From Microcaldota archaeon (lineage in GTDB: Archaea; Micrarchaeota; Micrarchaeia; Anstonellales; Anstonellaceae), in assembly GCA_026413765.1 (NCBI GenBank), contig JAOAKI010000005.1, positions 1 through 34,117 of the forward strand: a DNA stretch of 34,117 nt, given 5' to 3'. The translations under genes were made by a program, and so were the position numbers. This document shows, in pieces, positions 9,529-33,688 of the stretch. The first letter of the stretch is position 1. Every line of letters starts with the position of its first letter. A model generated the notes under the pieces. It had not been told where the DNA came from, ran no database searches, and was given only the letters and a program-made list of their open reading frames with translations.

Positions 9529-10128
9529 CTATCCTCCAGAAGAAGGAAGCGGCGAGGAATAGGGCTCAAGGAGCTTGGCTGCTTGGTTCAAGGCAGCAAC
9601 GACTTCCCCCTCGTTTTTGCCACCTGTGCAAATCACCTTGCCGTTCTTGAAAAGCAAAAGCGAGGTTTTTGGCGAGGAAAATTTCAATATTGCGCCAGGG
9701 AATTGCTCGGGCTCGTACTCCACATCCTCCAGCTCAGATGCGATTGCGTAAAGATCCAGCTCCACCCCAAGCTCTGCCGACGCGACAATATTTTGGACGA
9801 CGAATTTCGGCTTGAAATCTTTGGGCGGCTTGACCTTCGAATAGTTGATGAGCATTTTGAGCGTTTTTTGTATCGCCGCTTCGACTTCCCCCTCGTTTTT
9901 GCCCCCAGTGCAGATGATTTTGCCATTCTTGAAAAGCAAAAGCGAAGTCTTGGGCTCTTTGAGCTTGAGGATTGCGCCAGGGAATTGCTCGGGCTCGTAC
10001 TCCACATCAGAAAATCGCGAGGCGATCGTGTAAAGGTCAAGCTCCAAACCAAGTTCAGCAGAAGCAACAATGTTTTCTATCCTGTAGGTTGGCTTTATGC
10101 TGACCTTTGGCTTTTTTTGCTTTGACAC
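9529..10128 (-). CDS. tbp: TATA-binding protein (TBP)
   Basis: This general transcription factor binds TATA boxes and recruits TFB and RNA polymerase. The 199-residue product consists of two direct TBP repeats (about 15-92 and 103-180). Each has NIVASAELG, DVEYEPEQFPGAI, PKTSLLLFKNG and ICTGGKNEGEV, including the two intercalating phenylalanines per half. I chose GTG at 10128 because GGAGGAG lies 6 bases upstream; the frame is open to a TTG at 10143 that would place this site inside the gene. By hand alignment the halves are about 77% identical (59 of 77 positions), much more than the roughly 40% usual for archaeal TBPs. A short C-terminal tail ends PLPSSGG. It is co-transcribed with acylphosphatase and divergent from L21e. 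Confidence 0.97.
   Translation of the reverse strand: MSKQKKPKVSIKPTYRIENIVASAELGLELDLYTIASRFSDVEYEPEQFPGAILKLKEPKTSLLLFKNGKIICTGGKNEGEVEAAIQKTLKMLINYSKVKPPKDFKPKFVVQNIVASAELGVELDLYAIASELEDVEYEPEQFPGAILKFSSPKTSLLLFKNGKVICTGGKNEGEVVAALNQAAKLLEPYSSPLPSSGG
9689..10008 (-). repeat. exact 38-base repeat within the TBP gene
   Basis: Identical 38-base blocks at 9689-9726 and 9971-10008, 282 bases apart, encode DVEYEPEQFPGAI in each TBP half. Flanking parts are also closely similar. This is the internal duplication of TBP, unusually well preserved at the DNA level. Confidence 0.9.
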
Positions 10129-10149
10129 GGCAATCTCCTCCAAAAGATT

Positions 10150-14503: not shown

Positions 14504-15769
14504 ATGCAGCATCAAATCAGAGGGGTGCTTTTTGCATTCTTTCTGTTGATTTTTGTCCAACTGGCAAATGCTGCAGGATGGTATGACAATCTCTATTATT
14601 GGATTGCCTTGTCGGTCATAATTGCTTCAGCTTTTCTTGGGATTGCCTACATGATTGGCTCTTTTTTTGAGCTGAAGATAGTTGAGGCTTGGACAAAAAT
14701 TGAGCTACAAGAATTAGTTGCTGGCGTGCTGATTGCAGTTTTTTGCGTTGGATTGATTGCAAGCGCAGACATGGCAGCAAGCTTTCTTTCTGGAAGGCAG
14801 ACAGGGGCAGCGCAATATGCGATCGATGCCATAACAAAAATAAGAGAGGATGGAAGATATATTTACCTGAAAATTGCCACCGCTTATTTCAATGCAGCAA
14901 AATATGCTTCCTATTCTTATACTGCCGGGGTGAATTTGGAAGTTGTGTCGATCAGCGTTTCTCAAAGCCCAGCTGCTGGCCTTTCTCCTTTGGTAGCAGA
15001 GCTTGGGGCGGCGCTTGATGGAGTCGCAAATTATCTTTTGTTTTTGTCTGCGCAAAAATCTTTCATAATATTTTTTGTGAATGCATCTGCAATCTTGCTT
15101 CCTGTTGGCATTTTTTTGCGCTGTTTTTCAATCACAAGAAGGATAGGGGGAACAATATTAGGAGGCATTATTGCTGCCTCTGTAATTTACCCTGCGTCAT
15201 TTGCACTTTCTTATGAGATATATTCAACATTTTCTCCAAACATGGTGGACATGGCCTCAAAAATCGACATTTTGTCTAATATTCCAAATCCTCCACTGAC
15301 AGAAGTAGTCTGCAGCCCGAAGACACAAACATTTATTCAAAGCCCTGTTGGAATAGTAATAAATAGCCTGACAAGCAGCATTGGAGGAACGGCGGGAGGG
15401 CTTATCAGCACATTTGCAAAGGCAGTAATTACTGGTGAGAATGGATGGGCGATTTTGATATGCCCACCGTTGTTTGTGTTAGGCGTAGATTTTGTAACAT
15501 GTTGGGACATGGTCGCGCGAGTATTCAAGCTCACAAAGGCTTTCTTTGCGCTGGGAATGTACCCACTACTCAGTCTTTATGGAGAAATAGATGTAAATTA
15601 TTTAATTGAAAATGCGCGGGAATATCTTCTTCCAACTACCGCAATGTTTGGGGTCCTTACTCTGATTTTTTCGCTTCTTCCAATAATAATAGGGTTGGTT
15701 GCTGCGCGGAATTTCATAATATATTTTGGAGGGGAACCACAGCTTTACGGCCTTTCGAAGTTGGTGTAA
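14504..15769 (+). CDS. polytopic membrane protein, operon paralogue 1
   Basis: The 421-residue first member of the six-protein family has a signal peptide at about 1-23. Block A (FLGIAYMIGSFFELK...AWTKIELQELVAGVLI, about 42-79) bridges the first two membrane helices. An extracellular loop follows, then block B (LLPVGIFLRCFSITRRIGG...VIYP, about 196-226). A long segment between block B and the last helix pair contains further hydrophobic stretches (about 310-350) and two cysteines. Block C at the end reads IYFGGEPQLYGLSKLV. About six to seven membrane helices in total. It lacks a large cysteine-rich domain and could represent the core of the family. The next gene begins directly after its stop. 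No named family is recognised. Confidence 0.88.
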   Translation: MQHQIRGVLFAFFLLIFVQLANAAGWYDNLYYWIALSVIIASAFLGIAYMIGSFFELKIVEAWTKIELQELVAGVLIAVFCVGLIASADMAASFLSGRQTGAAQYAIDAITKIREDGRYIYLKIATAYFNAAKYASYSYTAGVNLEVVSISVSQSPAAGLSPLVAELGAALDGVANYLLFLSAQKSFIIFFVNASAILLPVGIFLRCFSITRRIGGTILGGIIAASVIYPASFALSYEIYSTFSPNMVDMASKIDILSNIPNPPLTEVVCSPKTQTFIQSPVGIVINSLTSSIGGTAGGLISTFAKAVITGENGWAILICPPLFVLGVDFVTCWDMVARVFKLTKAFFALGMYPLLSLYGEIDVNYLIENAREYLLPTTAMFGVLTLIFSLLPIIIGLVAARNFIIYFGGEPQLYGLSKLV

Positions 15770-16693
15770 ATGATGCGGTTGTTTGTATTTTTAGTGATTG
15801 TCGGATTTGCAAATGCTTCGCAATATGCAGATGTATGCGAAATTAGTCGATTCCATCCAGATTCAGTGGGATTCATAATTTATGCTCTTGCTCTTGTCTC
15901 CTTCATAATCAGCATTGCGTATATGTATGCAAAATTTTCTCATGATGTAAAAGCTGAGACGTTTGCAAAAGATGAAGCAAAAAACCTGCTAATTACTGTC
16001 ATATTGCTTGCGGGTCTTCTTGCATTCTTCACCGGCTCATGCAGGATTGCATTCGAATATATAGGAAAAAGTCCTTTTGAAGCAGCCTACTATTATATGA
16101 ACAGCGTGCTTGTCAACAATGGCCTTTCGATTGCTCGTCAGCTTACCTACTCAAGCCTGAGCAATCAGCTTGACGCAACCGCATATCTTTTCGTAGGATT
16201 CACGCCTTACAAAGGATATGGGCTTGCGCATCGCGCAAACCTTAGGGTAGTTTCTTCACAAAAAGAGTTCCTGCTTGACTTGTATATTCCGATAATTGCA
16301 AGCATAAGTGTGCAGAAATATTTGTTACAGATGATTGAATTTGTTTCAGTAAGCGTGCTTTTGCCATTTGGCTTTGTGCTGAGAATCTTACCTGCGACAA
16401 GAGAATACGGAAATGTCTTGATAGCGTTGTTTTTTGGGCTCTATATTATCACACCTTCTCTTTATGCATTAAGCGCTCGCGAATACGCAAAAATTATGAA
16501 GGAGCCATATCGAGTGGTTGGGCATTCTTTTGAAGACAAGATGGCATTCGGTTCGCAGAGCGGAACAGCAAGCACGCTTTATAGAATAGCATCCACTCTG
16601 CCGCAAGCCATTTTTATACCAAATTTGATATTGGTGTTGCTGATAAGCTGTATCAGCGCACTGTCAAAAGCATTGAGGGCGATTGAAGTATGA
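15770..16693 (+). CDS. polytopic membrane protein, operon paralogue 2
   Basis: The 307-residue product, with a signal peptide at about 1-16, is the smallest of the six paralogues. Block A (ISIAYMYAKFSHDVKAETFAKDEAKNLL) and block B (LLPFGFVLRILPATREYGNVLIALFFG...ITP) are clear. The last helix ends ALSKALRAIEV, without the LGGE-type C-terminal signature seen in the others. An extracellular loop of about 85 residues between blocks A and B is not cysteine-rich. Start is ATG at 15770 directly after the previous TAA; a second ATG follows. Its stop overlaps the next start (ATGA). Function unknown; it may be a shortened structural subunit. Confidence 0.86.
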   Translation: MMRLFVFLVIVGFANASQYADVCEISRFHPDSVGFIIYALALVSFIISIAYMYAKFSHDVKAETFAKDEAKNLLITVILLAGLLAFFTGSCRIAFEYIGKSPFEAAYYYMNSVLVNNGLSIARQLTYSSLSNQLDATAYLFVGFTPYKGYGLAHRANLRVVSSQKEFLLDLYIPIIASISVQKYLLQMIEFVSVSVLLPFGFVLRILPATREYGNVLIALFFGLYIITPSLYALSAREYAKIMKEPYRVVGHSFEDKMAFGSQSGTASTLYRIASTLPQAIFIPNLILVLLISCISALSKALRAIEV

Positions 16694-19600
16694 CAAAGAA
16701 GATCCTGATTTTGTTGGTTCTTTTGACTGTTTTGCAACAGATGGTCCAAGGATATGAAGTTGGAGAGGGTCCGTGCTTTAACGATGCTGATTGCGGACCA
16801 GGTCTTGTGTGTATAGGGTCGATATGCCAAAGCCCAACAACACCACCCTCTCCCATTCCTGAAAGACATTCGTATGGAAAAGGACCTTGCTTTAGTGATA
16901 ACGACTGTGTTTATCCGCTTGAGTGCGATGTTTCTTCAGGAAAATGCACTCAGCCACAAAGCCTTATCTGCGAGCGTATTCCGCAGACATGGGTATTTGT
17001 CTATACTCCTTCTGGCTATTCACAACAAAAAAACATAACGCAAATGATAAGTGCTCTTGAAGAGGGAAATAAGACGAAAGGGAGCGCAGTTGCAAGTACA
17101 AGCGGCATCTACAAAGCAGGTTGGTTTTCAGACTGGAAGACCACATCAATGATTGGAGTGATGATTGCCATCTTGCTTATTTCTCTTGCAGCAATAGCAG
17201 GGTATGCGTTCAATCTAAATGAGATAAAAGCGTTCGTGAGCATTGAGCTTGGGCAAGCATTGATTTCTGTTCTTTTGGTAAGCGGGATTATAGGGGGGAT
17301 AGTATTTATTGACGAGATAGCAAATGTAATAGTGAGCACAGCGGACTTGCCAGTCGTTTGCACTCCGGACGAGCCTTGCTATATAACTGTGGCAAAACGA
17401 TATCTTGATGACATTTATTCTATAGGCTCAAAATATGCGGCTGACGCGCTCAAGAGAAGCATAAATGAGCAAAAGATTGCAAGCTTTGGAATAAACACTG
17501 TATCAAATTGGGCTACACTTCTTTATGCAGGAACAAGCATAAGGCCAAACGCTGGTAGAACAATTGAGGCAGAGCGTGCGGGGGCGATATTTGAGACAAC
17601 AAGCAAGCTTCTTGTCAGCATTTACGCGCAAAGATATTTCATAGATGTCATCGCTTTTGCGCTTGCTCCCATTTTGCTTTTGCTTGGAGTGCTTTTGCGT
17701 ACATTCTTCTTTACTCGGAAACTTGGGGGACTTCTTTTGGCTATCGGGATTGCAATCTTCGTGATTTACCCCTTAACATATGCATTCGCATGGTACACTT
17801 TGAATATCACAGTGTATGGAGAAAGAGTGGGCGCAGAAGAAGAAGGAAGCTGCCCTGTGGAGTGCAAATTAAAGCCGCCAGTTGCATTTTATATAAACAA
17901 TACTACCGGCGGAATAATTCAGTTTGAAAGCAAGCTTGACTTGAGGAGAGCTGGAATAAATCGTCTGAACTGGAAAAGCGGAGATGTCAACGGTGACGGC
18001 AATCCTGAATTTCCTGGCTTGGTTGCATGCACAAACTTGAGTGAAATAAGTACGGAAATAGAGGATAGCTGCAAAGACTGCCCGACAGAATGTAGAGAAG
18101 TTCCGCTGCCAAGGCATAGAGGAGAATGCAACAGCGAAGCTTGTGTAAAATGCAATCCTGGATGCAAGATAATGAGGCTAAGAACAGATTGCGCACAAAA
18201 ATGCAGCTTGTCAGGTTGTCCTTCGGTCTGCAGGGCCCAGCTTCCTTTTGAAAACAAATGCTATATCGCATCGAACGGCACAAAGGTTGCAGCTAACTTT
18301 TCGGTTGACTGTACAAAGTGCATAAATTGCCCGAATTGGTGTCTGCTGAAAAAACTCAATCCAGATGGCAGCATAGAGCTTGTGAGAAGAAATGAGCCGC
18401 TCTGCAAAAACAATGTTGATTGTGAACAGTGTCCCACGCAGTGCGCCTATTTGACCAAAGTTGGAGAAAGTTATGATTGTGAAGATGCAAAAGTCTGTGG
18501 CAGATGCCCAAAACCATGCAGGATCGATGCTGACTTTCAGCTATCTTCTTATGATACTGAAAATTTGATTCCAAGATATTGCAAAGCGAACCAACAAATA
18601 GCTGAGGCTTGCCAAAGATGCCCGTCTTTGTGTAAAATCCAAATCCCTCAAGATCCATTAAATGAAGAAAATCCTTCTTGCTATCCTTATCCGCAGAAAA
18701 ACTATAGGCCGCAAAACTGCACATCTTGCCCGAAATATTGCAGATTTTCAAGCTATCAATTCATCAGCAAATATTCAGCTGTTGTCAAGGAAATTACTGG
18801 GGTGCCTAGTGATTGTAAAGGTGCAGATATCTTCTGTGATAGTTCTGCCTGCCCTTCAGACTGCCGTGCATCACAAACGCCGCCAACCTGCAGAGAGTTC
18901 AACGAGTACGATGAAGACAATTTTAATTTGTGCAGAAAATGCCCGCCGGAGGGAAGAATAATACTTCGGCACACAAATGCTGCTGGTCAGCAAGACTATT
19001 TTGGTCCTCCAGCAATAAACACTCAATTTTATGGCTCAGACTACTCAACTATTAAGTGCGATGAAGAAAATTGCTCTTCTTCTTGCAAAAGATTGTTAGA
19101 AGTTCCTTCTGGACCAGGTTGTATGGATTTTGACCCTTCTGCTGGCACCTCTTCTAACTGCACAAAATGCCCGATTGAATGCAGAGTTATATTTTCAAAC
19201 CAAGGCATGCTTTCAAACAACTGCGATAATTATGCTTGCGGAGAGCAAGACTGCCCAAGCAATTGCAAAGTTCACGTTTCTTCTAATCAAGGCTATGTTT
19301 GCAGCGAATATTTTGGAAATGGCAGGAGAGGAGATTACGTGAGCTACAGTTTTGGTTGCTATAACGTAACTAATCCTTCGACAAGCCAGGGATGCATAGA
19401 TAAGACTAGCGAGGAAACTTGCGAGTTATTGAGAGAACAAGGATGCAAATGGCTCCGAAATGACGATATTACTATTCCGATAGGCCAAAGAAACCCCCCA
19501 TACAACCAATTTGATTCGTGCAAACAATGCCCAGAGCATTATAGAATAAAAGGGTTTGATTTCAGAAATCTGCAAATTGACTGCAGCCTTTCATCTTGCC

Positions 19601-20121
19601 CGGATGAATGCCGAATTGAAATTCCAAAGAAAAACGGCGGGCACCAAGAATGCAGAGAATACATATCAAGCAGCTTGCCTTATTTTGGATGCCCGATGCT
19701 TTGCAGAAGAATTAAGTCAGACATGCCTCCTTCTCCATATTGCAATAATCCAACCTGTTTGCCGCCAATTGAAAAAACTGATTTGAACAATTGCACATTT
19801 GATCCAGCCCCCCAAAGAGTTTGCGAGGGCTGCTTTGATTGCCCATATGATTGCTTGTTTGAGCCGCCTGTCAGGACAGATTGCGCGGAGTTGTGCAGCA
19901 AAGAAGAAATGGTTGAACAAAGATTGTCTCCTGGAGAGTTTGTGTCAAGTTTCCCCGGAGCTGCAAGTGGAGCGGTGGATGTGAGAAATGTTGGTGTGCT
20001 GATGATGCCTGCTCTTGTCCTTCCATTATTTTCAATAGTCATTGTGATATCATTTGTGAGAGTGCTTTCATCAATTTTGGGTGGAGATATTGACATACCA
20101 GGATTGAGTAGGATAATATGA
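16690..20121 (+). CDS. giant polytopic membrane protein with a CxxCPxxC-repeat ectodomain, paralogue 3
   Basis: This 1143-residue protein has a signal peptide (about 1-21) and two N-terminal cysteine modules of the form GPCF-x-D-x-DC-x(5)-C (about 28-95). Block A (AGYAFNLNEIKAFVSIELGQALISVLL, about 172-198) and block B (ILLLLGVLLRTFFFTRKLGGLLLAIGI...VIYP, about 323-358) follow. Between block B and the last helix is a region of about 670 residues (about 387-1055) with many C-x2-C-P-x2-C-[RK] modules. I count 14 CPxxC, two variant CxxxC and two degenerate copies. The chain ends with a helix and RVLSSILGGDIDIPGLSRII. The repeats must be extracellular if the topology matches the paralogues, and are probably disulfide-bonded. 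Starts and stops overlap both neighbours by 4 bases. Function unknown. Confidence 0.88.
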   Translation: MTKKILILLVLLTVLQQMVQGYEVGEGPCFNDADCGPGLVCIGSICQSPTTPPSPIPERHSYGKGPCFSDNDCVYPLECDVSSGKCTQPQSLICERIPQTWVFVYTPSGYSQQKNITQMISALEEGNKTKGSAVASTSGIYKAGWFSDWKTTSMIGVMIAILLISLAAIAGYAFNLNEIKAFVSIELGQALISVLLVSGIIGGIVFIDEIANVIVSTADLPVVCTPDEPCYITVAKRYLDDIYSIGSKYAADALKRSINEQKIASFGINTVSNWATLLYAGTSIRPNAGRTIEAERAGAIFETTSKLLVSIYAQRYFIDVIAFALAPILLLLGVLLRTFFFTRKLGGLLLAIGIAIFVIYPLTYAFAWYTLNITVYGERVGAEEEGSCPVECKLKPPVAFYINNTTGGIIQFESKLDLRRAGINRLNWKSGDVNGDGNPEFPGLVACTNLSEISTEIEDSCKDCPTECREVPLPRHRGECNSEACVKCNPGCKIMRLRTDCAQKCSLSGCPSVCRAQLPFENKCYIASNGTKVAANFSVDCTKCINCPNWCLLKKLNPDGSIELVRRNEPLCKNNVDCEQCPTQCAYLTKVGESYDCEDAKVCGRCPKPCRIDADFQLSSYDTENLIPRYCKANQQIAEACQRCPSLCKIQIPQDPLNEENPSCYPYPQKNYRPQNCTSCPKYCRFSSYQFISKYSAVVKEITGVPSDCKGADIFCDSSACPSDCRASQTPPTCREFNEYDEDNFNLCRKCPPEGRIILRHTNAAGQQDYFGPPAINTQFYGSDYSTIKCDEENCSSSCKRLLEVPSGPGCMDFDPSAGTSSNCTKCPIECRVIFSNQGMLSNNCDNYACGEQDCPSNCKVHVSSNQGYVCSEYFGNGRRGDYVSYSFGCYNVTNPSTSQGCIDKTSEETCELLREQGCKWLRNDDITIPIGQRNPPYNQFDSCKQCPEHYRIKGFDFRNLQIDCSLSSCPDECRIEIPKKNGGHQECREYISSSLPYFGCPMLCRRIKSDMPPSPYCNNPTCLPPIEKTDLNNCTFDPAPQRVCEGCFDCPYDCLFEPPVRTDCAELCSKEEMVEQRLSPGEFVSSFPGAASGAVDVRNVGVLMMPALVLPLFSIVIVISFVRVLSSILGGDIDIPGLSRII
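17851..19854 (+). repeat. protein-level repeat array, C-x2-C-P-x2-C-[RK] modules
   Basis: Sixteen CxxxC cores (CPVEC, CPTEC, CNPGC, CPSVC, CPNWC, CPTQC, CPKPC, CPSLC, CPKYC, CPSDC, CSSSC, CPIEC, CPSNC, CPDEC, CPMLC, CPYDC) and two broken ones (CPPEG, CPEHY) recur at irregular spacing of about 20-60 residues. Most are preceded by C-x2 and followed by R or K. DNA identity between units is low, so the array is old. Confidence 0.85.
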
Positions 20122-22319: not shown

Positions 22320-22320
22320 G

Positions 22321-23649
22321 GTGTTGAAAAAAGTGAGCATGCTTGCGGTTGCTTTCATTTTGCTTTCACAGCTAGCTTGGCCTTCATGCGCAACCTTAGG
22401 GCAAAAATGCACGACAGTAGGATGCTGCTCGCCATATTTTTGCGACACACGAAGCAATCCGCCCGTTTGCAGAGACTGTCTTCCTTTAGGCTCAGATTGC
22501 TCTAGCGCTAGAGACAAATGCTGTGGAGCCCCAGCTGTGCAGTGTACCGGGACTCCGGCTGTTTGCACTGTCTCTTCTACTGCTGCTCCTATTTGCGGCG
22601 CATCAAGTAAAGCAGAGCTTATTTGGCTTGCTGCTCTTGCAGCTCTGGCAACTGCAATACTGATTGCGCTTGTCTATATGGCAGGAGAAATCATGCAAAA
22701 TCCAAGGCTTTTGACATGGGCAAAGACAGAAAGTAGCCAGATTTTTGCGAGCATAATAATTGTGGGGGCAGTGATAGGGATGATAGAGCTTTTCTGCTCT
22801 ATTCAAATAGGAGAGGTTGCCTCAATATTCACCCCCCTGCCAAAGATTTTTCAGCCCTACAAGGAAAAATCGATTTATGATGGCGCAATCATATATCTTG
22901 AAAAATTGATGGATATTGCCCGCTCCAATTTTCAGGGGTTGCGCTATCTTGCTGGCGCATATGAAATCAGAATCAGCTATACTAAAATGGTTTGTAAAGG
23001 AAACTGCTTCATTTCTCTCGTCGGATACAATGAGGCAGAGCATGGAGGGGAGACGCTGCATCTTGCGCTGATAAACAATCTTTTAAATTCAGCCACTATC
23101 TCCTACCTAACTGCCGCATTTGAATATTTCACGCTGCAATACATACTAAATGGATTGTTCTTGGTCCTGCTGCCCATTGCAATAATATTGAGGTCGTTGC
23201 CATTCATGAGGCAATTTGCAGGCACAATTGTCGCAATTTGCATATCACTATACATAATGTATCCTGCGATGCTTGTTTTCAATGCATCAATTGTTCCGGG
23301 AGTTGCTCCGCCTTCTCTCTTATTCAGCTCTTGTACATGCGCAGGAGTAGATATTTTTGCTTATGAAAACGGGCGGGCGACTGTGGGGTGCAAAGGAAGA
23401 GCAAATGAATGCTATGATGAAGAAGCACTTGCAAGAGCAGGGCTTGAGATGGCCGGGTTTGGGGCGTCACCAAGGCTTCCACACGTCCCAAATTCGATTG
23501 ACGGCGATGTCAAGGCAAATGCTTTAATTTTTATTATTACTGTCTTTTTTGCTGCATTCAATTTCATTGTGATAGTTGCTTTCGCAAGAGGGATGGCGCG
23601 CTTGCTGGGAGAAGAAGTAGACATAAGCAAGTTGGGGCAAATGATATGA
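22321..23649 (+). CDS. polytopic membrane protein with two N-terminal cysteine modules, paralogue 5
   Basis: The 442-residue product has a signal peptide (about 1-20) and two C-x-CC-type modules at about 21-83 (KCTTVGCCSPYFC, DCSSARDKCCG), like those in paralogue 4. Block A (ALVYMAGEIMQNPRLLTWAKTESSQIFAS) and block B (LLPIAIILRSLPFMRQFAGTIVAICIS...MYP) follow. A cysteine-bearing loop (CTCAGV...VGCKGRANEC) precedes the last helix, and the tail is ARLLGEEVDISKLGQMI. The start is GTG at 22321 (or TTG at 22324), one base after the previous stop. Its stop overlaps the next ATG. I infer the same extracellular orientation for the cysteine modules as in paralogue 4. Confidence 0.87.
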   Translation: MLKKVSMLAVAFILLSQLAWPSCATLGQKCTTVGCCSPYFCDTRSNPPVCRDCLPLGSDCSSARDKCCGAPAVQCTGTPAVCTVSSTAAPICGASSKAELIWLAALAALATAILIALVYMAGEIMQNPRLLTWAKTESSQIFASIIIVGAVIGMIELFCSIQIGEVASIFTPLPKIFQPYKEKSIYDGAIIYLEKLMDIARSNFQGLRYLAGAYEIRISYTKMVCKGNCFISLVGYNEAEHGGETLHLALINNLLNSATISYLTAAFEYFTLQYILNGLFLVLLPIAIILRSLPFMRQFAGTIVAICISLYIMYPAMLVFNASIVPGVAPPSLLFSSCTCAGVDIFAYENGRATVGCKGRANECYDEEALARAGLEMAGFGASPRLPHVPNSIDGDVKANALIFIITVFFAAFNFIVIVAFARGMARLLGEEVDISKLGQMI

Positions 23650-24749
23650 AGATTGCTTTGTTTTTGGTATTTCTTATTGTGCTTCAAAACGCGACAATTC
23701 AGGACATCATTCAGGCAGAAAGAGGAAAATACGAGGCAAAACTTGGAAAAGGGACAGAATGGTATGGCCTTGCAATATTGGCGATTGGTTTATGCCTGTT
23801 TTTCAATATTTTGCTTTACATGATTGGCACCTTTTTGCAGGCAGAAAACATCAAAAGGTACGCCAAAGCTGAATTTTTTCAGCTTTTTGCTTCCTCTCTT
23901 ATGATATTTTTTGCAGTTGCTCTCCTTTTTGAACTCTCATCAGGCGGGGCGTTTGGAGTCATGGAGAGGCTGTTGGGTAGCGGAGGAAGCGTGGCGTGCA
24001 ATGCGGTACCTGGAGGAAGGTACTATTTTTGGAATATGCAGGCTTACGGCGGAGGTCCGATAGGAGCATTCAAATGCAAGACGCAGGAAAAAATAGATGC
24101 GCTTGACAGGCAATATGACAACATATTCAAAGCAAATAAGGCACAGGAAGCGCTGACGTCGACATGCATAAGCATTTTTGGCTTTCCTATATGGTGCTGG
24201 AGTTGGGATTTGAGCTATCATAAAAAAGTAGAGGAAGCCCATCTGCTCTGCTCAAAAATTACTGGCCTTTTGATTTCATTGCATGCTCAATATGCTCTCG
24301 CAGAGTATGTGCAAAGAAATATGCTTTCGGTGTTTTTGCCTTTAGGCTTGCTCCTTCGCATTATTCCTTTGACGCGCGGAGTTGGCGGGCTATTTATCGC
24401 GATAGCCATAGGATTTTACTTTGTTTGGCCAACGTTTTTTGTGCTCACCGACCCGACATTTGTAAAGGTAGATGACAAAAAGTTTGACGACAAGCTTGCA
24501 GGAATGTGCTTCAGCGGATTCAAAGGAGTTGCGGTCATAGTCAATACTGCATTGAATATAGGGGGAGGGATGGATGCGAGTGCGCTTGCAAATGCTCAGG
24601 GAAGGCAGCTTCTTTATGAAATCACAATCGGCTCAATGTTTTATCCATTTGTCGCACTTGCAATCACGTTGATATTTATACGCTCCGCCACACCGCTGCT
24701 TGGCGGAGAGTTGGGAGAATTTATGAGAATGGTTGCGAGGCTGAGCTGA
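23646..24749 (+). CDS. polytopic membrane protein, operon paralogue 6
   Basis: The 367-residue product has a hydrophobic N-terminus (about 1-17) that may be a signal peptide. Block A (ILLYMIGTFLQAENIKRYAKAEFFQLFASS) and block B (FLPLGLLLRIIPLTRGVGGLFIAIAIG...VWP) are among the clearest of the set. The loop between them holds about seven cysteines and several tryptophans (IFGFPIWCWSWDLSY). The C-terminus reads RSATPLLGGELGEFMRMVARLS, a slightly altered version of the family tail. It lacks a large ectodomain. ATG at 23646 overlaps the previous TGA, and its own TGA overlaps the next ATG by one base. Confidence 0.87.
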   Translation: MKIALFLVFLIVLQNATIQDIIQAERGKYEAKLGKGTEWYGLAILAIGLCLFFNILLYMIGTFLQAENIKRYAKAEFFQLFASSLMIFFAVALLFELSSGGAFGVMERLLGSGGSVACNAVPGGRYYFWNMQAYGGGPIGAFKCKTQEKIDALDRQYDNIFKANKAQEALTSTCISIFGFPIWCWSWDLSYHKKVEEAHLLCSKITGLLISLHAQYALAEYVQRNMLSVFLPLGLLLRIIPLTRGVGGLFIAIAIGFYFVWPTFFVLTDPTFVKVDDKKFDDKLAGMCFSGFKGVAVIVNTALNIGGGMDASALANAQGRQLLYEITIGSMFYPFVALAITLIFIRSATPLLGGELGEFMRMVARLS

Positions 24750-27700
24750 TGAAAATAACGGACTTAGCAATAATTGCTACAATTCTTTGCTTATTTTTCC
24801 TGTTTGGATGCTCCAAAAATGAATACATTCCTTGCTGCCAGAGGCAATACATATTCGATTTGAATGGGCCTGACCCGCAAAAAATCCTTCACGACCCAAG
24901 ATGCAATCAAACAGATGGGACATATTTTGGAATATGCGATCCTGCAACAACAACGTCCAGCATGGCAAACTGCACAAATGGAAAAAGCTGCTCCCAGCTT
25001 GATAAGGCAACCTGCGTCAAAACGAATAATTGCTATTGGAATGAAACCTCAAGGAGGTGCATAGGCGACACTGCTTATTGGTTCATGCCAATATGTGCAG
25101 ACCCTGCTCCGTCAAATTGCATCAATGACAAGTGCGCTGCCATGGTGTGCGGCTATTCAAAAATAAGCATAGGGCCTGCCCCGACTGCGAAAGACTTTGA
25201 CGAAGAGAAAAAGAAAGGCCCTATTGAAGTAAGCTCGCAGGCAGATCCTCTTTCTGGAGTTGGACTGCTTGGAAAAAGCTGCTCCATCAAAACGATGGAC
25301 CAAAATCTGTACAATAAAGTCGTGCAATCCAAAGGAAACCTGTGGGTCAATTCTTTCAGATTTGGCGTTGGAAGAAGCTTTTCCGACTTTGAGCAGGCGC
25401 GATATTTCTTCCCAATTTCAGACAGATTTTGCTCAACGAATATGCTTGGAGGCAAAGATAGATTTATGAATTATTTGAATGCGCCCTCAACTTGGTGCGC
25501 AAGCTATTCTGGAAACGTTTATCATTGCTCAAAGACAGGAATGAACTTTTCAAGCCAGCAGAAATGCCAAGATTATTGCTTTGGCTTGCTTCCACCCCAA
25601 GACTGCGAAGTCATCAGCACCAGTACAAAATATCGATGCATTGAAACTGAATTTTTGTACAATGATCAAAAAGACTGCCAGCTGGAGTGCCCAATAATTT
25701 CACAACCAGATCTTTGTTCAAACGACCAGACCAAATTCCCATTTCTTGAGCCTGACGCACGATACAAAAGCGTGCTTCAGGCAGACTATATATACGGTAC
25801 TAACAACTATAAGAGTTGGTGTACGTTGTGGAAACCAAATTGCGAAGGGTACAAAGAGGCATGCAAGCAAGAAAATTGGAGAAACCTTGGAAAATTTGGA
25901 AACTATCACCACGGCTGTGACGATTTCGAGCCTTATGCTTGCCCGGAAGATAAGCTGGACACAAGAGAGTGTTTGTGGAGCCCAGGTATTGGTGGCCACC
26001 GGCAGGGGATGCGGTGGATGAACAACAGACAATTCACACTCGAGCTTGACACTATGTATTATGTAGATCGGCTAAAAAAGCAAATAGAAAATGCTCCGCA
26101 AAAAGCCACGATGTTTGAGTGCGAGCATGGTGGCCAGTGCCTTTCAGGAGTGTGCGACAAGACCCAATACAGCAGAGAAACATGTAAAAGCACTGCTGGT
26201 GGACCTGTTGAATGTGGATGTAAAAAAGAAGGGGGATACAGGCTAAACTGCGGAATGTTTGGAGACGGAAGCACTTATAACACCAGCTATTATATGCTGG
26301 AGGCGATCAACGCGTCTCCAAACAAATTTGGATTCGAAGCTACTTATTCTTCTGTTATCTTTGAGGAAGGAAGATTTTCGTCCGAACAAGGAACTGTTTA
26401 TATATTCACACAACCTTATGGCGCTAATATACCGCCAAAACCGAGCACGACATTCCAAATTTTGAAAAATTGCCAGATTCAGCCACTACAAAGCGCCGTT
26501 TATTTTTCTGATGCGCAAGTTGGCAGAAGCAAAATCGACCAAATAAAAATGTGTCTAATTGTTGAGCCAGAAGAGCCTGCAAAAATTCAGCTTCTTCCAG
26601 AAAATTATCCTGGCTTGACTATAAATGATGATAATTGCACGCTCAATGGAGAAGATTTGAAAGGATCTCGGAGAACAAATGAAGAAGGAAAGATTGTCTA
26701 TGTGTCAGCGTATCATTTCTTACCTAAAGAGGAGAATGGAGAGGGAGCAATTGGAGTATGTAAGCTTAATGATATTCCAGCATTTGCAACACCGCCATAT
26801 TTTGATCTTACAAGGTTGGGATGGTGCATGCCTTGCACTTATGCTACACTTGCAGTCCAGAAAATAAATTGGAATCTGAGGGGATGGAGATACAATTGCT
26901 ATGCCTTTAGAGCCTATTACAATTATAGTGCAAGCAATGGCACAATTCCGACTATGAATCCTGCTTATAAGGTAGGGTGGGGGCGCAGCACAAGAGAAAA
27001 CGCCTACGATGTTTCTCCTGTCAAAAGAGATTTTGTTTTGTTTGGCAGAAGAGCTGAAAGGCAGAATGGAAATCTCGCAAGGGGATATTATAGCAGCCGA
27101 TTGGGCAATTTTATAAGTGAATATGTATGCGAGGATGGATGGGGCAATATATGGGTCTACCCAACTTATCCAGAAGAGAGAGTTGAAATGCGTTATTCTA
27201 ATGCAAAACAGACATGGCACTTTCAATTGATGATCGACCCTTCGCTCCCATATGTTGTGCAAAAGACAAGGGATTATCTTGCTGCAGGAGTGATACCTAT
27301 ATTGGATATCAGCGAAGGTGGACCGTCTGTTTCGGCTGTAGTATATGACGACGTCCTTACTTTCTTAGGCTTGCCAGTTAAAGAAAGTATAAGATTAGCT
27401 ACTCAGACTAAAAAGTTGCCTGATGTGGATGGGGCAGTAATTTACGCAATAGCAAATATTTCACATATCAACAACGAAAGCTTGAACGGAAGCGTTGTGG
27501 CTGGAGACGGCGTATATAATTCAGAGTTGGCCTCATATTTGGGAATCAAACAGAATAGCAACAATCAAAAGATAGTTGAGCTCAAAGGAGGGAAGAATTT
27601 GACTATTTATAGCGCTGTGTTTTTCAAAGAGACGAGCAAAAATCCGCCGTTGATTGCAATTGATGTAGGAAATCCGGAAGGAAAAGAGCAATTCGTTTTT

Positions 27701-28849
27701 GGGACCCTTGATGAATTTTTCTACAAGCCAGGTGAAAACGGGCGAGAGTGGAGGATGAGAAATGGGGTGCCAGACAAATATCCCGGATATGTCGATTTGC
27801 TTTTGCAAGAATGGGTTCCAATGTGCAACAAGGGAGGGGTAAGCGATGAAGAAAAAATTGAGAAGGAATTCGAGTACAGGATGAACCTCAGTAGGCAATT
27901 TCTCAAGAATTATTCGAGACCAACCATCGTCTGGAGATTCCATTTCACAAGCAATACATATTGCAACATTGACAAGTTTTTGAGCTATTTATTCGACCAT
28001 CAAGCTCAGATGGTGGATTCGGGAATCATCGGACTTATATATGATGCTTGGCTTACAGAAGACGGAAAGCCTTATGTGAATTATAGTCATGCGAACTGGG
28101 ATGGCGGAGATGCGACTGGAACTACTGACAAGATAGAAAATTCTGTCCTTACTCTTGAGAGATTGGGGATGCAAAGCAAAACAGATGTTTTTTGCTCTCT
28201 CCAAAACCATTCGAAGAAAATTTTGGGGATGACAAGGCTTACCTATGGGCAAAAAGTTTATGCGGAAAACAAAAGCTGCATGTGCGAAGTATGCAAAGAT
28301 GAAGATGTCATTAGTGGAGCGTGCCAGAAGCCGCATGAAGACTATCAGCCAGGAGATGAGAATTTGCCTCAACTTTATTGCATGGATGGGGAAAAATGCC
28401 AAATGCCTGATTCATCTTGGACAAACTACTCTTATTATCGCTGCCCTGCCATGTGTGTGAATGCAACTGCATGCAAAAAATGCAAAGATATTGTTCCTCC
28501 CACGGCAGGAAGCAACCTGTTTTGCAGAATAGAAACAAGTGACAATAGAATTTTCAGAGTCCTGAAAAATTATTCTCAGCTTACAGATGATTATTGGGAC
28601 ATTATTGCGGCTTTGCAAAACAAGGACAAATGTTGCTTGAATATGAGTGACCCACAAAACAACGAAGAAATAAAATACACATACGGAAAAATAGAGGGGG
28701 TCAAGCAAAGGACTGAATTTATCCAATATCCAAAAAGAGGAGACATTGGCATAGATTGCGGCCGCGCACCAGACACATCGGTATTGAAATACTGTAATGT
28801 TAAAATACCTTTAAGCAATAATCATTTGGCTTGCTGGAAGGTTGGATAA
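24749..28849 (+). CDS. giant cysteine-rich putative lipoprotein
   Basis: The 1366-residue product begins with a lipoprotein-type signal: a hydrophobic core ending LFLFGC-like, with candidate Cys21 followed by SKNEY. There is no other membrane segment, so it is predicted to be secreted and lipid-anchored. Residues about 22-520 are cysteine-rich with many aromatic residues and N-x-S/T sites. The middle is less cysteine-rich. At about 835-1100 a pattern of strands and helices (AAGVIPILDISEGG, PTIVWRFHF, GIIGLIYDAWLTEDG) suggests a TIM-barrel, perhaps glycoside-hydrolase-like domain, but I cannot name catalytic residues with confidence. The C-terminal ~170 residues are again cysteine-rich, with one RCPAMC unit like those of paralogue 3. 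It is the only member of the operon with no polytopic region besides the last gene. Confidence 0.83.
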   Translation: MKITDLAIIATILCLFFLFGCSKNEYIPCCQRQYIFDLNGPDPQKILHDPRCNQTDGTYFGICDPATTTSSMANCTNGKSCSQLDKATCVKTNNCYWNETSRRCIGDTAYWFMPICADPAPSNCINDKCAAMVCGYSKISIGPAPTAKDFDEEKKKGPIEVSSQADPLSGVGLLGKSCSIKTMDQNLYNKVVQSKGNLWVNSFRFGVGRSFSDFEQARYFFPISDRFCSTNMLGGKDRFMNYLNAPSTWCASYSGNVYHCSKTGMNFSSQQKCQDYCFGLLPPQDCEVISTSTKYRCIETEFLYNDQKDCQLECPIISQPDLCSNDQTKFPFLEPDARYKSVLQADYIYGTNNYKSWCTLWKPNCEGYKEACKQENWRNLGKFGNYHHGCDDFEPYACPEDKLDTRECLWSPGIGGHRQGMRWMNNRQFTLELDTMYYVDRLKKQIENAPQKATMFECEHGGQCLSGVCDKTQYSRETCKSTAGGPVECGCKKEGGYRLNCGMFGDGSTYNTSYYMLEAINASPNKFGFEATYSSVIFEEGRFSSEQGTVYIFTQPYGANIPPKPSTTFQILKNCQIQPLQSAVYFSDAQVGRSKIDQIKMCLIVEPEEPAKIQLLPENYPGLTINDDNCTLNGEDLKGSRRTNEEGKIVYVSAYHFLPKEENGEGAIGVCKLNDIPAFATPPYFDLTRLGWCMPCTYATLAVQKINWNLRGWRYNCYAFRAYYNYSASNGTIPTMNPAYKVGWGRSTRENAYDVSPVKRDFVLFGRRAERQNGNLARGYYSSRLGNFISEYVCEDGWGNIWVYPTYPEERVEMRYSNAKQTWHFQLMIDPSLPYVVQKTRDYLAAGVIPILDISEGGPSVSAVVYDDVLTFLGLPVKESIRLATQTKKLPDVDGAVIYAIANISHINNESLNGSVVAGDGVYNSELASYLGIKQNSNNQKIVELKGGKNLTIYSAVFFKETSKNPPLIAIDVGNPEGKEQFVFGTLDEFFYKPGENGREWRMRNGVPDKYPGYVDLLLQEWVPMCNKGGVSDEEKIEKEFEYRMNLSRQFLKNYSRPTIVWRFHFTSNTYCNIDKFLSYLFDHQAQMVDSGIIGLIYDAWLTEDGKPYVNYSHANWDGGDATGTTDKIENSVLTLERLGMQSKTDVFCSLQNHSKKILGMTRLTYGQKVYAENKSCMCEVCKDEDVISGACQKPHEDYQPGDENLPQLYCMDGEKCQMPDSSWTNYSYYRCPAMCVNATACKKCKDIVPPTAGSNLFCRIETSDNRIFRVLKNYSQLTDDYWDIIAALQNKDKCCLNMSDPQNNEEIKYTYGKIEGVKQRTEFIQYPKRGDIGIDCGRAPDTSVLKYCNVKIPLSNNHLACWKVG

Positions 28850-31800
28850 ATGAGGGGTGCGCTGATTTTTTTGCTTTTTTTTTCTTTCGTTTTTGCCCAG
28901 CCAACACAAGTGTGCCCGGTAAATCCAGTGCCCTCTTATTTGGACATAAGGATTGATGAAAAGGCAGGCGAAATCAGCATCTTTGTCTATAATATAAGCG
29001 GGGATTATGAAAAGAGCCCGATCGTCAATGGCCTGGTCTATCGGGTCAATCTAAGCGGCATGCAGCAGAACCCACCAAAGTCTCCAACTATCTGCTATGA
29101 TGTGACGGACGAAAACGGAAGAATTTTGCATACGTATGACTTAAATGCAAGCGGCTGCATCGATTATTGGTATATTTTTTGCCCAAATGACGCAAACACA
29201 AAAGAATGCCTCAATGGGAGCGGCCTGACAAACATTCCTCAAAAGTACAACGATACGCAGCCATGCAGAACTGCCAGAACTCCTCTCAATTATGTAGATT
29301 ATTTGCCGTCGCACAATGAATTTTATATATGCAACACGCCAGCAGTGGATCTGGCTCCGCTTTGCTGGCCGCTTATGCTTATTTTCTCTCTTTTGCTGGG
29401 AGCATCTTTCGCAATTGGAAGAAATCCTTTCTCTTTTTTTGACTTTTCTGTCCCGAGGATGGGAAGAGGGCGGCAGTATTCGATAAGAACACAGCAAAAA
29501 AGCTTTGATATCCTTCAATATATATCTGGTTTGGACAGGTTGTCTGAAAAGACGACCGGAAAGAGCGTAACTGGTTCTCTTTCCAGGGGACTGAATAGCA
29601 TAATTTTTGCGGTTGTTGGATTCTTAGAAAGAACTTCTCAGTGGCTTTATTTTAAATTCGGTGGGAAGACCGATTTGGAGAAACTGTATGCGTTAAAAGC
29701 CGACATAGAGGAGGGGAAAGCGAAGCTAGCAGAGCTCAAAGCACAGTATAGCCGGCTTGGGGAAGGCAAAGAGAAAGAGGCCGTAAAGAAGCAAATTCAA
29801 AATCTAGAAAAAAGAATTGCAGAGTTAGAAGGAATTGCAAAACGTATGGAAGAAAAGTTGAAAAACACAGAAAGCAACAAGATGAATAACCTGTCAAACA
29901 AGCAAGTGATGGAGAACGAGAAGAAGACAGGAGAAGAAAATCAGAAGGGGGAAGAAAGCAAAGGTAAAACAACACTTGAAGATCAAAAAAATAAATCAAC
30001 CCTTGCGTCCTCACAACAGACTGTCCTTTTTGGTGCACCAAACATCATTGAGTTGTTATATGCTGCTTTTCGAGGACTAAGTGAGAAAGAAATGGAGGAG
30101 GCGGTAGCAACGAAAAACAGGTTTGAAAATTTCAAGAAAGAGATGGGTATAGATGAGAAATCAAGCTGGGTTCAAAAGCTTGCGGTCGCGCTGCTTTTTG
30201 GATTAAAAGAGCAATTTAATTTGAGTGCATTTTCATCCGACCAGTGGGCTAAAAGTTTGGCAAACCTGTTTCTACAGTGGCTTGCTTTCAGAGAGCGAAA
30301 TAAAGGGAGAGACAGCTTGGAAAAATTCGTGGGCAAACTTGAAAGCATATTGGGAAGAGACAGCTTTCTTTTAGCTTATTATATGAGCAGCCCTGCAGAT
30401 CTCCCAACTGGATTGAGAATTTTTTCTGGTGCAATAGAATATGGCAAAGCCGAAGTAAAGAAGATTACTACCAAAGGTGATGAAGACAAGGTAATATTGA
30501 AGGGGAAAATAGTAGAGTATGAGGGAAAAGAGTGGCTTCTTATGAGTATAGGAGAAGAAGGAGGCACTAAGAAGGTCTTGATTAATGACAAGGGAGAAAG
30601 AATGGAGGTTATAGAAGAAAAAGTAGGCACTAAGAAGGTCTTGATTAATGACAAGGGAGAAATAAAGGATGTTTCGTCTGGTGCAACACTTAACGAAAAG
30701 GGTGGGGGGTATCTTGTTTTTGATGCTGGGGATGTGAAATACACTCTCTACAAAGGAGAGAACAATAAAGAGGTAGCTGCATTCAAAAAGAATGCTGCAA
30801 GTTATTATTCTGCATTAGCCACACAGCTTGAATTGAAGTTAAGCGCCAGTCTTAGTGAGGGGGAAATAAGACAAAAGTATGAAGAAAAGTTTTTGGAGAT
30901 GACTGGCACAAAAAGAAAAGAAAACCAGAAACTAGAAGACTATTTTAAGGAATGCATCGAAGCTGTAAAAGACAATAAAGCGTTGGCAGAAGAACTGAGA
31001 GGGCGCTTAAAAGAATACTATGCAGAAATAATGGAAAGAACAAATGCTGTGGAAATCGCAAAAGCTACGAGAACATATGCCGACGCGCTAGAAGATAGTT
31101 ATCGTGCGTTGAAAAAAGGAACTGCTAATGATATAAACTATGCATTTTTCAAGGAGAGAATTGCTCGCGATATTCTTGAACTGGCCGCAAATGATATGCA
31201 AAGAACCTCAGAAATTATCCAGGAGATGAACCACAGAATTTCAGAAGCGCAGAAGATGACAGCAGAAGAGAGGCAAAGTGCTCTAAACAAACTAAAAACA
31301 GACTATGAAAACAAAATTAAGGAGCTTACCGATATTGAAAAGAAAACGGAGGAAACACATGAAGAGTATGAGGAAAAGTGCAAGAATAAATTAGTAGAAG
31401 ATGGAGAGTTGGCCAAGCTCGGGGCTCTTGAAAAAATAATTATGGAGCGGAAATTGGTTGAGGCAGTCTATAGTGCAACTGATGAGGATCTGAAAACGCT
31501 TAAAAGGATGGATGAATGGCTGGTTCTTCTTGACGCTAATATAAGAAAGAGAAATGAGATACTTCAAGGATTCTATGTAATGGCATCTGTCGCGAATACT
31601 GTAAATTTGGATATAGAGATTCTTTCGCGTGGTTATGTCAATGCGACTGATGTAAGAAATGCCCATATTGTTCTTTCGGATGATGTTAAGCCATATTTGG
31701 ACGCAATGTTTGACAAGATAGGCAAAATCCAATTACTTTCAACGTATTTGATATCGCAGAGCGAGTTAGGAAAAGATATCAAGACGGCTATTGACAACGC

Positions 31801-33688
31801 AATGGGAGCATTCAATGAGATTTTTAAGCAAGAAGAAGATAAGAAAAAAGAAGAACCGATAAAGCAACAGACAACAGATACGCAGCAGCCTAGTCATTCT
31901 AAAGTGGAAGTGGCATCAGCTTTTCGAATATTTCAACGAACACTAAAGAAGGGTGGGCTTTCTAGCGAGAATTTAGAAATAATAAACAACATCGTAACAG
32001 CAGTCTGTAATACAACAAACTTGCAAGGCGCCAAAATTGTAATTACAGTTCCACGTGAAAATTATGGGGCAACGTTTGAGTGGGGGTTTAATACTACGCT
32101 TGGCCAAAATATGGCGGATGAGGCGGTAGATAAATTAAGGGATAAAGGAGTCTCTCTAGATGCTCTGAAAGGAAGACTGATAGGAGAAGGAGTCGGCCTA
32201 AACAAAATCAAAGTATTGAAGAACAGTAGCGAGGATTATGATGAGCTGAAGTTAGATAAAACCTTCAGTAAAGAAGGAGACGCCACTGTTATTTTAGGAA
32301 GGAAAGGACAAACAATTGGAAACATTACGCTTGAAGAGGGAAAAGTTTATATTGCCTGCTACGAAGGTGGAAAGATTAATGTTTATGAGAATAACGGTGC
32401 GAAGATCCAGATTAAGGTCGATTTTTTTGATGTAACTGGAGAGCAGCTACTGAACACCTTAGACAAAGATAAAAATTTCTTTAACCAAATGAAAAATGAG
32501 ATAAACAGCGTGGATATAGTTAAGTCTGACGGGACAAAGGAAACTATTAATCTTGGAAACATCAGTGAAGCTAAATTTAGGGATATGCTTCGTGGAAAAC
32601 TCAGTGAAGATGAATTTAAGAAGATGCTTAGGGAATGTAAGATTTATTTCAATTTTAAGAATATAGAAGATAGCGAAGTAAGAAAGAAGCTTTATGGAGA
32701 CCAATATAAAATAGAGGCAACAATTATTAAACAGGAGGAGGTGCAAAAGCAGGAACCGCCACCTCCACCAACAGAGGAGCCGGAAGTCAAGCTAAACAAG
32801 ATGGATGTGTTTAAGGTCAATGCTTTGAGTTTAGCAAAAGATGCGACAGTGTTAGTCGATATACTTTCTCAATATTCAAAGGTGAATGAGAGGTATACCC
32901 AAGGCATAAACGAAGCACTGTCGCAAGGGCTTTTTGGACAAATAGAGTTAAAAAAAGGTGACAACCCGATAAGCTGGGATGAATTTCTGAACCTTAACAA
33001 TAAAGAGAAAAATAGTGTATTGAAAGAGAATATAGATCGACTTTTTGTGGAAAGTCTGCAAAATCAAAGCAAAATATTGCAACGTTATGTGAAAAATAAT
33101 GCGATTCCAGAAGAAATGAAGGATGAGGCAGAAGGGCTCAGGAAGAACATCCAAGATGCACTTGTGCATTACAAAGAAACCCAAAAAAACAGCACTTTTG
33201 ATCCAAATTCTGCTTTGAGATATTTGCAAGAGGTTTCTAATTTATCTGAAGCGATATATAGGTATCCGTCCTCATCTTCGCCAATATGGAAAAGGAAAAC
33301 AGAATATGAGGATCTGATGCTTTCAAAGACTCACGAATGGGCAGGAATGGTCGGATTTCCTTATGACTTTACAGACAAAATGAGGTATTTTGTCCACGGA
33401 GACGTAGACCGCAATGAGTATGAGAAAGAGATAAAACAGCGTCTGTCTTATTTGGAAGAATATGTTTCAAGCCTCCCCCCGTCAGATTCTCATAAAGAGG
33501 CTCAGAAAAGGGTCTGGGAAACTCGTCCGAGATCTATTTTGTTTTCACTACAAGAGAATATTGGAGAAACATATGATCCTCATCTTCGCGAGCCTCCTCC
33601 GCTCCCCCCTCCAATCGGAGAGCATTGGGATCGGGATGAATGGGTGAAATGGAGAGAAGATATGAAAAGATGGAGGAATGGTCAATAA
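28850..33688 (+). CDS. giant anchored protein with long helical, probably cytoplasmic, C-terminal region
   Basis: The 1612-residue last gene of the operon starts directly after the previous TAA. It has a signal peptide (MRGALIFLLFFSFVFA), an ectodomain of about 155 residues with about nine cysteines, and one membrane helix near 173-190 (LCWPLMLIFSLLLGASFAIG). A basic segment follows (GRGRQYSIRTQQ), so the remaining ~1400 residues should be cytoplasmic. They include a short hydrophobic stretch near 243-260, a coiled coil at about 275-350 (many E/K heptads), long helical regions at 640-1000, and beta-pattern segments around 540-640 and 1060-1260. A proline run (PPPPPTEEPE) lies near 1305, and the end is PPLPPPIGEHW. 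No ATPase or nucleotide-binding motif is seen. Its codon and base usage is more AT-rich than the upstream genes. Confidence 0.83.
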   Translation: MRGALIFLLFFSFVFAQPTQVCPVNPVPSYLDIRIDEKAGEISIFVYNISGDYEKSPIVNGLVYRVNLSGMQQNPPKSPTICYDVTDENGRILHTYDLNASGCIDYWYIFCPNDANTKECLNGSGLTNIPQKYNDTQPCRTARTPLNYVDYLPSHNEFYICNTPAVDLAPLCWPLMLIFSLLLGASFAIGRNPFSFFDFSVPRMGRGRQYSIRTQQKSFDILQYISGLDRLSEKTTGKSVTGSLSRGLNSIIFAVVGFLERTSQWLYFKFGGKTDLEKLYALKADIEEGKAKLAELKAQYSRLGEGKEKEAVKKQIQNLEKRIAELEGIAKRMEEKLKNTESNKMNNLSNKQVMENEKKTGEENQKGEESKGKTTLEDQKNKSTLASSQQTVLFGAPNIIELLYAAFRGLSEKEMEEAVATKNRFENFKKEMGIDEKSSWVQKLAVALLFGLKEQFNLSAFSSDQWAKSLANLFLQWLAFRERNKGRDSLEKFVGKLESILGRDSFLLAYYMSSPADLPTGLRIFSGAIEYGKAEVKKITTKGDEDKVILKGKIVEYEGKEWLLMSIGEEGGTKKVLINDKGERMEVIEEKVGTKKVLINDKGEIKDVSSGATLNEKGGGYLVFDAGDVKYTLYKGENNKEVAAFKKNAASYYSALATQLELKLSASLSEGEIRQKYEEKFLEMTGTKRKENQKLEDYFKECIEAVKDNKALAEELRGRLKEYYAEIMERTNAVEIAKATRTYADALEDSYRALKKGTANDINYAFFKERIARDILELAANDMQRTSEIIQEMNHRISEAQKMTAEERQSALNKLKTDYENKIKELTDIEKKTEETHEEYEEKCKNKLVEDGELAKLGALEKIIMERKLVEAVYSATDEDLKTLKRMDEWLVLLDANIRKRNEILQGFYVMASVANTVNLDIEILSRGYVNATDVRNAHIVLSDDVKPYLDAMFDKIGKIQLLSTYLISQSELGKDIKTAIDNAMGAFNEIFKQEEDKKKEEPIKQQTTDTQQPSHSKVEVASAFRIFQRTLKKGGLSSENLEIINNIVTAVCNTTNLQGAKIVITVPRENYGATFEWGFNTTLGQNMADEAVDKLRDKGVSLDALKGRLIGEGVGLNKIKVLKNSSEDYDELKLDKTFSKEGDATVILGRKGQTIGNITLEEGKVYIACYEGGKINVYENNGAKIQIKVDFFDVTGEQLLNTLDKDKNFFNQMKNEINSVDIVKSDGTKETINLGNISEAKFRDMLRGKLSEDEFKKMLRECKIYFNFKNIEDSEVRKKLYGDQYKIEATIIKQEEVQKQEPPPPPTEEPEVKLNKMDVFKVNALSLAKDATVLVDILSQYSKVNERYTQGINEALSQGLFGQIELKKGDNPISWDEFLNLNNKEKNSVLKENIDRLFVESLQNQSKILQRYVKNNAIPEEMKDEAEGLRKNIQDALVHYKETQKNSTFDPNSALRYLQEVSNLSEAIYRYPSSSSPIWKRKTEYEDLMLSKTHEWAGMVGFPYDFTDKMRYFVHGDVDRNEYEKEIKQRLSYLEEYVSSLPPSDSHKEAQKRVWETRPRSILFSLQENIGETYDPHLREPPPLPPPIGEHWDRDEWVKWREDMKRWRNGQ
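30562..30662 (+). repeat. exact 38-base direct repeat, 63-base period
   Basis: Copies at 30562-30599 and 30625-30662 are identical over 38 bases and are 21 codons apart. They encode GTKKVLINDKGE twice in the giant last gene. The perfect identity implies a recent in-frame duplication. Confidence 0.92.

Follow-up and report, generated by a model that had tools for sequence, protein, structure and literature searches.

The window analysed here is the whole of contig JAOAKI010000005.1 (34,117 nucleotides), one contig of the 840-kb genome of a Micrarchaeota archaeon, and the subject of this report is g3, the third of six consecutive paralogous membrane-protein genes (g1-g6, positions 14504-24749). 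The g3 protein contains 86 cysteines in 1143 amino acids, 75 of them in a long array of short cysteine modules and nine in the N-terminal region. A first-pass annotation of this DNA had described such an array within a membrane protein; we confirm the array in g3, and additionally identify the carrier and its operon, both of which that annotation had missed. The gene and its parts are as follows.

16690..20121, + strand: g3, the open reading frame of a 1143-residue CedA/VirB6-like membrane protein bearing the cysteine array, third of six paralogs
16690..16755, + strand: signal-peptide-like N-terminus, residues 1-22 (hydropathy; helix 2-20 in the model)
16774..16971, + strand: N-terminal cysteine modules C29-C94, nine cysteines, predicted extracellular (sequence and cysteine positions)
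17134..17343, + strand: transmembrane helices alpha1-alpha2, residues 149-218 (hydropathy, model)
17626..17796, + strand: transmembrane helices, residues 313-369, including the basic cytoplasmic loop RTFFFTRKLGG (hydropathy, ortholog conservation, model)
17851..19896, + strand: cysteine array, residues 388-1069, with repeated C-x2-C-P-x2-C-[RK], predicted to be extracellular and disulfide-bonded (sequence, motif counts, alignment)
18940..18954, + strand: degenerate core CPPEG, third cysteine absent, arginine kept (21 of 59 orthologs have cores of this form)
19528..19542, + strand: degenerate core CPEHY, third cysteine absent, arginine kept (ortholog comparison)
19981..20097, + strand: last transmembrane helix, residues 1098-1136, followed by the conserved C-terminal motif GGDIDIPG (hydropathy, conservation, model)

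The cysteine array and its modules

Within residues 388-1055 (window 17851-19854), the span first proposed for the array, 73 of 669 residues are cysteine. The CPxxC motif occurs 14 times and CxxCPxxC eight times in this span, against means of 0.66 (maximum 8) and 0.08 (maximum 2) in 5000 composition-preserving shuffles of the stretch; both are enriched far above chance. For bare CxxxC the departure is less marked, with 17 occurrences (an eighteenth lies at residue 1065) against a shuffle mean of 7.8 and a maximum of 17. The recurring cores and the two degenerate ones described in the first-pass annotation are borne out, and the modules are real; as a minor correction, C501-xxx-C505 and C1065-xxx-C1069 match CxxxC and not the CPxxC[RK] module. 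Its start of the array was kept, and the end was moved to residue C1069 (about 19896), the natural end of the array. The claim that R or K mostly follows the core also held, in g3 (13 of 18 cores; background 11%, binomial P 1.5e-9) and in the orthologs (320 of 428, or 75%; background 7%). Cores of the form CxxCPxxx followed by R or K, with the third cysteine absent, were found in 21 of 59 orthologs, and given this recurrence we regard CPPEG and CPEHY as a conserved subtype and not as products of decay.

Matches to g3 are present in 58 of 59 related genomes, and an alignment-based scan of the genome contigs located g3 relatives at 47 loci; the named records that carry them are nearly all Candidatus Micrarchaeota metagenome-assembled genomes. 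Among these relatives the number of array cysteines ranges from 20 to 85, and module number, loop length and sequence differ strongly between genera, with invariant cysteine anchor modules near both ends of the array. The 47 array columns above 80% identity consist of 30 cysteines, 10 prolines, 4 arginines and 3 glycines. Tandem Repeats Finder detected no DNA-level repeat in the array, so its modules are old and not a recent expansion. Among the genomes searched, the CPxxC array is apparently restricted to the order to which the window belongs, probably Anstonellales. Since relatives across the lineage keep it, the array is probably no accident of one genome and probably represents a stiff contact structure conserved throughout the lineage.

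Eukaryotic disulfide repeat domains (TNFR, EGF, furin-like, GCC2/GCC3) are built of small modules that contain CxxC pairs and CxxCP motifs, and by this description they resemble the array. Unlike them, it matched no Pfam family, either in g3 (none at E<=1) or in 25 g3 orthologs (none at E<=0.01), and assignment to a known cysteine repeat (EGF, TNFR, furin-like, TSP) was rejected at the Pfam level. A PDB sequence search with the array gave nothing significant, with a weak profile match to a sulfite reductase chain (E 0.34); Foldseek on a model of the isolated array found no PDB match at E<=0.001, and VIA-align returned one row, at Z 2.2, for a model of middling confidence. The earlier statement that the modules fit no identifiable repeat family is thus upheld: in the searches made, neither Pfam nor the PDB contained a match for this type of cysteine repeat.

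Topology and cysteine pairing

Hydropathy analysis of g3 yielded hydrophobic segments at residues 1-19, 149-177, 179-218, 313-343, 339-369 and 1098-1136, and an AlphaFold2 model built from a 25-sequence alignment (mean predicted local distance difference test score, pLDDT, 64; core about 80) placed helices at 149-173, 177-218, 290-338, 340-380 and 1096-1129. The two agree with the proposal that the array is inserted in the loop between the second transmembrane block and the last helix. We place the array outside the cell because of the signal-like N-terminus, its position before the last transmembrane helix and the loop RTFFFTRKLGG (337-347), the sole strongly basic short loop, which lies on the membrane side opposite to the array; R337, R343, G346 and G347 of this loop are invariant. 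Nine N-x-S/T sequons and the even cysteine counts described below also count toward the extracellular location claimed in the first-pass annotation, which is supported but not proven.

Of 55 orthologs, 45 have an even number of array cysteines (P 2e-6); after clustering at 40% identity, 22 of 29 do (P 0.008). In a first count of 47 orthologs the even numbers were split 22:17 between multiples of four and 4n+2. Given that the counts are even and not multiples of four, disulfide pairs are favoured over Cys4 metal sites, and a disulfide-bonded array, although not proven, is supported as a prediction. We would guess that a single bridge between the array and the N-terminal region completes the pairing in g3. 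Alternatively, the array could consist of extracellular metal- or Fe-S-binding modules for metal storage or electron transfer, with the CxxC pairs as ligands; CxxC pairs and multi-cysteine clusters are typical metal ligands, and the weak sulfite reductase match points the same way. Besides the parity of the counts, the near absence of histidine (5 of 669 array residues), the predicted extracellular location and the lack of any zinc-ribbon or rubredoxin family match (Pfam, g3 and 25 orthologs) argue against metal binding, which we hold to be improbable.

A look for disulfide enzymes, proposed in the first-pass annotation, turned up a tandem pair of membrane-anchored thioredoxin-fold proteins, bearing the motifs CPYG and CPHC, elsewhere in the genome (G000:C11:14768-16538, locus L201), which are candidate extracytoplasmic disulfide enzymes.

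The six-paralog operon and its VirB6/CedA-like core

The genes that accompany g3 are listed here.

14504..15769, + strand: g1, paralogous membrane protein, 421 residues
15770..16693, + strand: g2, paralogous membrane protein, 307 residues
20118..22319, + strand: g4, paralogous membrane protein, 733 residues, with a long N-terminal cysteine-rich region (57 cysteines) and a weak Dickkopf_N match (E 0.026)
22321..23649, + strand: g5, paralogous membrane protein, 442 residues, with a short N-terminal cysteine-rich region and a weak UPF0506 match
23646..24749, + strand: g6, paralogous membrane protein, 367 residues, with a weak NCBIfam CedE match (E 0.0019)
24749..28849, + strand: g7, lipoprotein of 1366 residues, 66 cysteines, conserved lipobox LFGC
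28850..33688, + strand: g8, 1612 residues, N-terminal signal, one transmembrane helix (164-190) and a long charged coiled-coil-like region

Profile-profile comparison of the g3 family with the g5 and g6 families (hhalign, 99.8% and 99.9%) indicates from the alignments that the three are clearly homologous. The order g1-g2-g3-g4-g5-g6-g7 is conserved throughout the Micrarchaeota order, with g8 adjacent or in divergent transcription. No cluster examined held more than six paralogs, and most often there were exactly six (in 38 of 67 uncut clusters), counts below six including genes lost through simple selection of open reading frames or broken assemblies. With few exceptions, the array-bearing paralog occupies third place. 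Six-gene clusters are retained in other orders of the class, at four loci (L185, L186, L192, L194), and two of these (L185, L186) have long cysteine-rich members essentially devoid of the CPxxC module.

The core of g3 appears to have a VirB6/CedA-like fold according to the model, a conclusion supported but not proven. In a VIA-align comparison with the PDB, the top three of 988 aligned chains were all VirB6/TrwI of plasmid R388 (8rtd, 7o3v, 8rt9), at Z 8.5-8.6 over 162-232 residues with the array skipped; the next, unrelated chain reached Z 7.2. In the Foldseek ranking, VirB6 chains took the third and eighth places, neither of them significant. Moreover, the five hydrophobic helices of g3 (alpha1-2 and alpha5-7), with soluble helices between them, follow the plan published for R388 VirB6 (PMC9259494). 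When 46 g6 orthologs were compared with 18950 NCBIfam models, CedE (5 of 46) and CedA (2 of 46) were the sole models matched by more than one ortholog; the best Ced-family E-values were 4.2e-5 (one of 44 other paralogs) and 3.8e-4 for CedE, and 0.0011 for CedA.

The genome contains a second six-paralog membrane-protein cluster (G000:C1, 116.8-123.9 kb; G000:C1:116846-131742 with neighbours; L048, L125), which adjoins SecDF. Its partners are a divergent 1867-residue protein with a g8-like layout and a 735-residue lipoprotein that has a transglycosylase-type SLT domain (E 2.2e-5); in a relative (L065), the lipoprotein of this second-cluster type hits the g7 profile (2.7e-21). With a g8-like protein and a g7-type lipoprotein beside it, the second cluster parallels the first in composition. 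An SLT, lytic-transglycosylase-type domain is unexpected in an archaeon that presumably has no peptidoglycan. By eye, the region common to g7 (24749-28849) and the second-cluster lipoprotein (L125:7539-9746) looks like a glycoside-hydrolase-type barrel; Pfam gave no match there, nor for g7 and six g7 orthologs. A solitary thirteenth paralog of 339 residues lies outside both clusters (G000:C10:58359-59378; L049:4360-5379), and single copies occur elsewhere in the class too (L190, L195).

Cysteine-rich expansion is not strictly confined to g3, as some clusters carry it on g1 or g2 (L051, L052, L094). One related genome has a g1-type paralog of 1717 residues and 113 cysteines (L066; G021:C83). 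The N-terminal cysteine regions of g4 and g5 (20118-23649) appear knottin- or Dickkopf-like (CxxDxDCC...), unlike the CPxxC array, with weak Pfam matches only. Farther upstream in the window, a 204-residue open reading frame (9529-10143, - strand) has two similar halves and looks by eye like a TATA-binding protein.

Two VirB4/CedB-type ATPases are encoded in the genome, one on C5 (CedD 4.5e-22, CedB 5.9e-22) and one on C10 (CD1110 VirB4-like 5.9e-28, CedB 3.1e-25), together with one VirD4/TrwB-like protein (PF10412, E 2.6e-9). A match to the C5-type ATPase was present in all 59 genomes searched. These ATPases, though encoded elsewhere, would be coupled to the operon. Assigning one VirB4 type to the operon by co-occurrence was rejected: genomes of the f8 family have one VirB4 type only, yet the operon, with a short array, is retained in genome G026. 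Upstream of the C10 ATPase, the gene considered as a split VirB4 N-terminal domain is a ribose-phosphate diphosphokinase; the gene upstream of the C5 ATPase, likewise suspected, gave no convincing family match.

A candidate exchange machine and its alternatives

At roughly even probability, we propose that g3 is the disulfide-rich-ectodomain subunit of a six-paralog CedA/VirB6-like translocator akin to a type IV secretion system, distantly resembling the pores through which cells hand DNA or proteins to each other, with the array as its stalk or contact surface. The six tandem paralogs would together form the membrane channel of this machine in Micrarchaeota. The array, between the last two membrane helices of g3, would be exported and would fold into a row of small units, held together by disulfide bonds, on the outer side of the channel. 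VirB6 of R388 forms the base in the membrane that carries VirB5 and from which the pilus has been proposed to grow (PMC9259494); the array would occupy the face where VirB5 and the pilus dock on VirB6 in bacterial type IV secretion systems. There it may serve as a stiff stalk, or as a surface that makes contact with a partner cell, with a length that differs by lineage; its position and variability suggest this function. The contact role, translocation and any substrate are what we infer.

Several results weigh against this proposal. A Z of about 8.6 is not high for helical proteins, as helical bundles reach such values by chance, and the model of whole g3 has a predicted template modelling score (pTM) of 0.42; that of the isolated array is of middling confidence (mean pLDDT 74, pTM 0.48). 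The CedE and CedA scores lie far under the curated cut-offs (18 bits against 400), and g5 orthologs did not match either model. In hhalign comparisons, the g3, g5 and g6 families reached a probability of at most 2% against nine VirB6 proteins of bacterial MPF_T plasmids; sequence homology to bacterial VirB6 was accordingly rejected, and because this direct profile test failed we write "VirB6/CedA-like" and do not file the family as a member. No homologs of the genome's VirB4/VirD4-like ATPases lie in any operon neighbourhood examined, and no pilin gene was identified in the operon neighbourhoods, where no search was aimed at VirB2/CedA1-like pilins; g2 has a weak pilin-like NCBIfam match (E 0.033). 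Furthermore, the genome gave no match to VKOR or Thioredoxin_4, so that part of the look for disulfide enzymes came back empty.

The lack of profile-profile support against bacterial VirB6, the modest Z-values, the ATPases missing from the operon neighbourhoods and the position of the second cluster next to SecDF would all suit a transporter, or a complex organising the envelope, that is specific to Micrarchaeota and has no relation to type IV secretion or Ced; the array would then be a structural or S-layer-like domain of the surface, and the likeness to VirB6 would reflect no more than the geometry common to helical bundles. Three VirB6 entries nevertheless head the fold ranking, CedE and CedA matches recur, CedB/CedD/VirB4 ATPases occur in all relatives searched, and the second-cluster lipoprotein carries an SLT domain, as VirB1 does; we therefore consider an unrelated complex unlikely, while giving it real weight. 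Less probable still is a role of the array as a variable adhesin or decoy, with diversifying selection acting on it and the channel scaffold incidental to its function. The strong variation among genera between invariant flanking anchors is what such an adhesin would lead one to expect; the anchors themselves, together with the constant place of the gene, speak for a structural function linked to the channel. A bolder form of the translocator proposal is a hetero-hexamer in which a different VirB6/CedA-like gene supplies the subunit at each ring position, matching the VirB4 hexamer, with a new disulfide-repeat family, carried by the one fixed subunit g3, replacing VirB5 and the pilus as the host-contact organ; prompted by the number six alone, it is a speculation we rather doubt.

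The Ced and Ted DNA-exchange systems (PMC9905601, PMC11868833) share with the present system archaeal polytopic CedA-type membrane proteins and CedB/CedD/VirB4-type ATPases. In Sulfolobales, a hetero-oligomer of CedA and CedE is believed to import DNA (PMC11868833). The number of CedA-type proteins in Ced is one or two, against six in tandem here in each of two clusters; the paralog scores are far below the Ced equivalog cut-offs, and a CedA1-like pilin was not identified here, no pilin-directed search having been made. To our knowledge, Ced systems have no giant cysteine ectodomain. R388 TrwI/VirB6 shares the helix plan and is the best fold match of g3, but is a homopentamer without a cysteine array (PMC9259494), and the g3, g5 and g6 families lack profile-profile similarity to its bacterial family. 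The nearest parallel in design is RvhB6a-e of Rickettsiales, a host-dependent lineage, where five VirB6-like proteins of 674-1154 residues combine a VirB6/TrbL domain of about 413 residues with long extra regions (PMC2653234). These are bacterial and number five, not six; the likeness is one of design, homology not being established, and a CPxxC array is not described for them, cysteine being mentioned once in PMC2653234, for VirB9/VirB7. No literature linking DPANN archaea or Micrarchaeota to such an operon was found in a search that did not extend to subscription papers and preprints.

Little is settled about how DPANN archaea, which are ultra-small and probably depend on hosts, exchange molecules with partner cells. 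The operon of six CedA/VirB6-like proteins with a giant ectodomain of predicted disulfide type, kept across an entire Micrarchaeota order and without a Pfam or NCBIfam match that passes the cut-off, is a concrete candidate for such an exchange machine.

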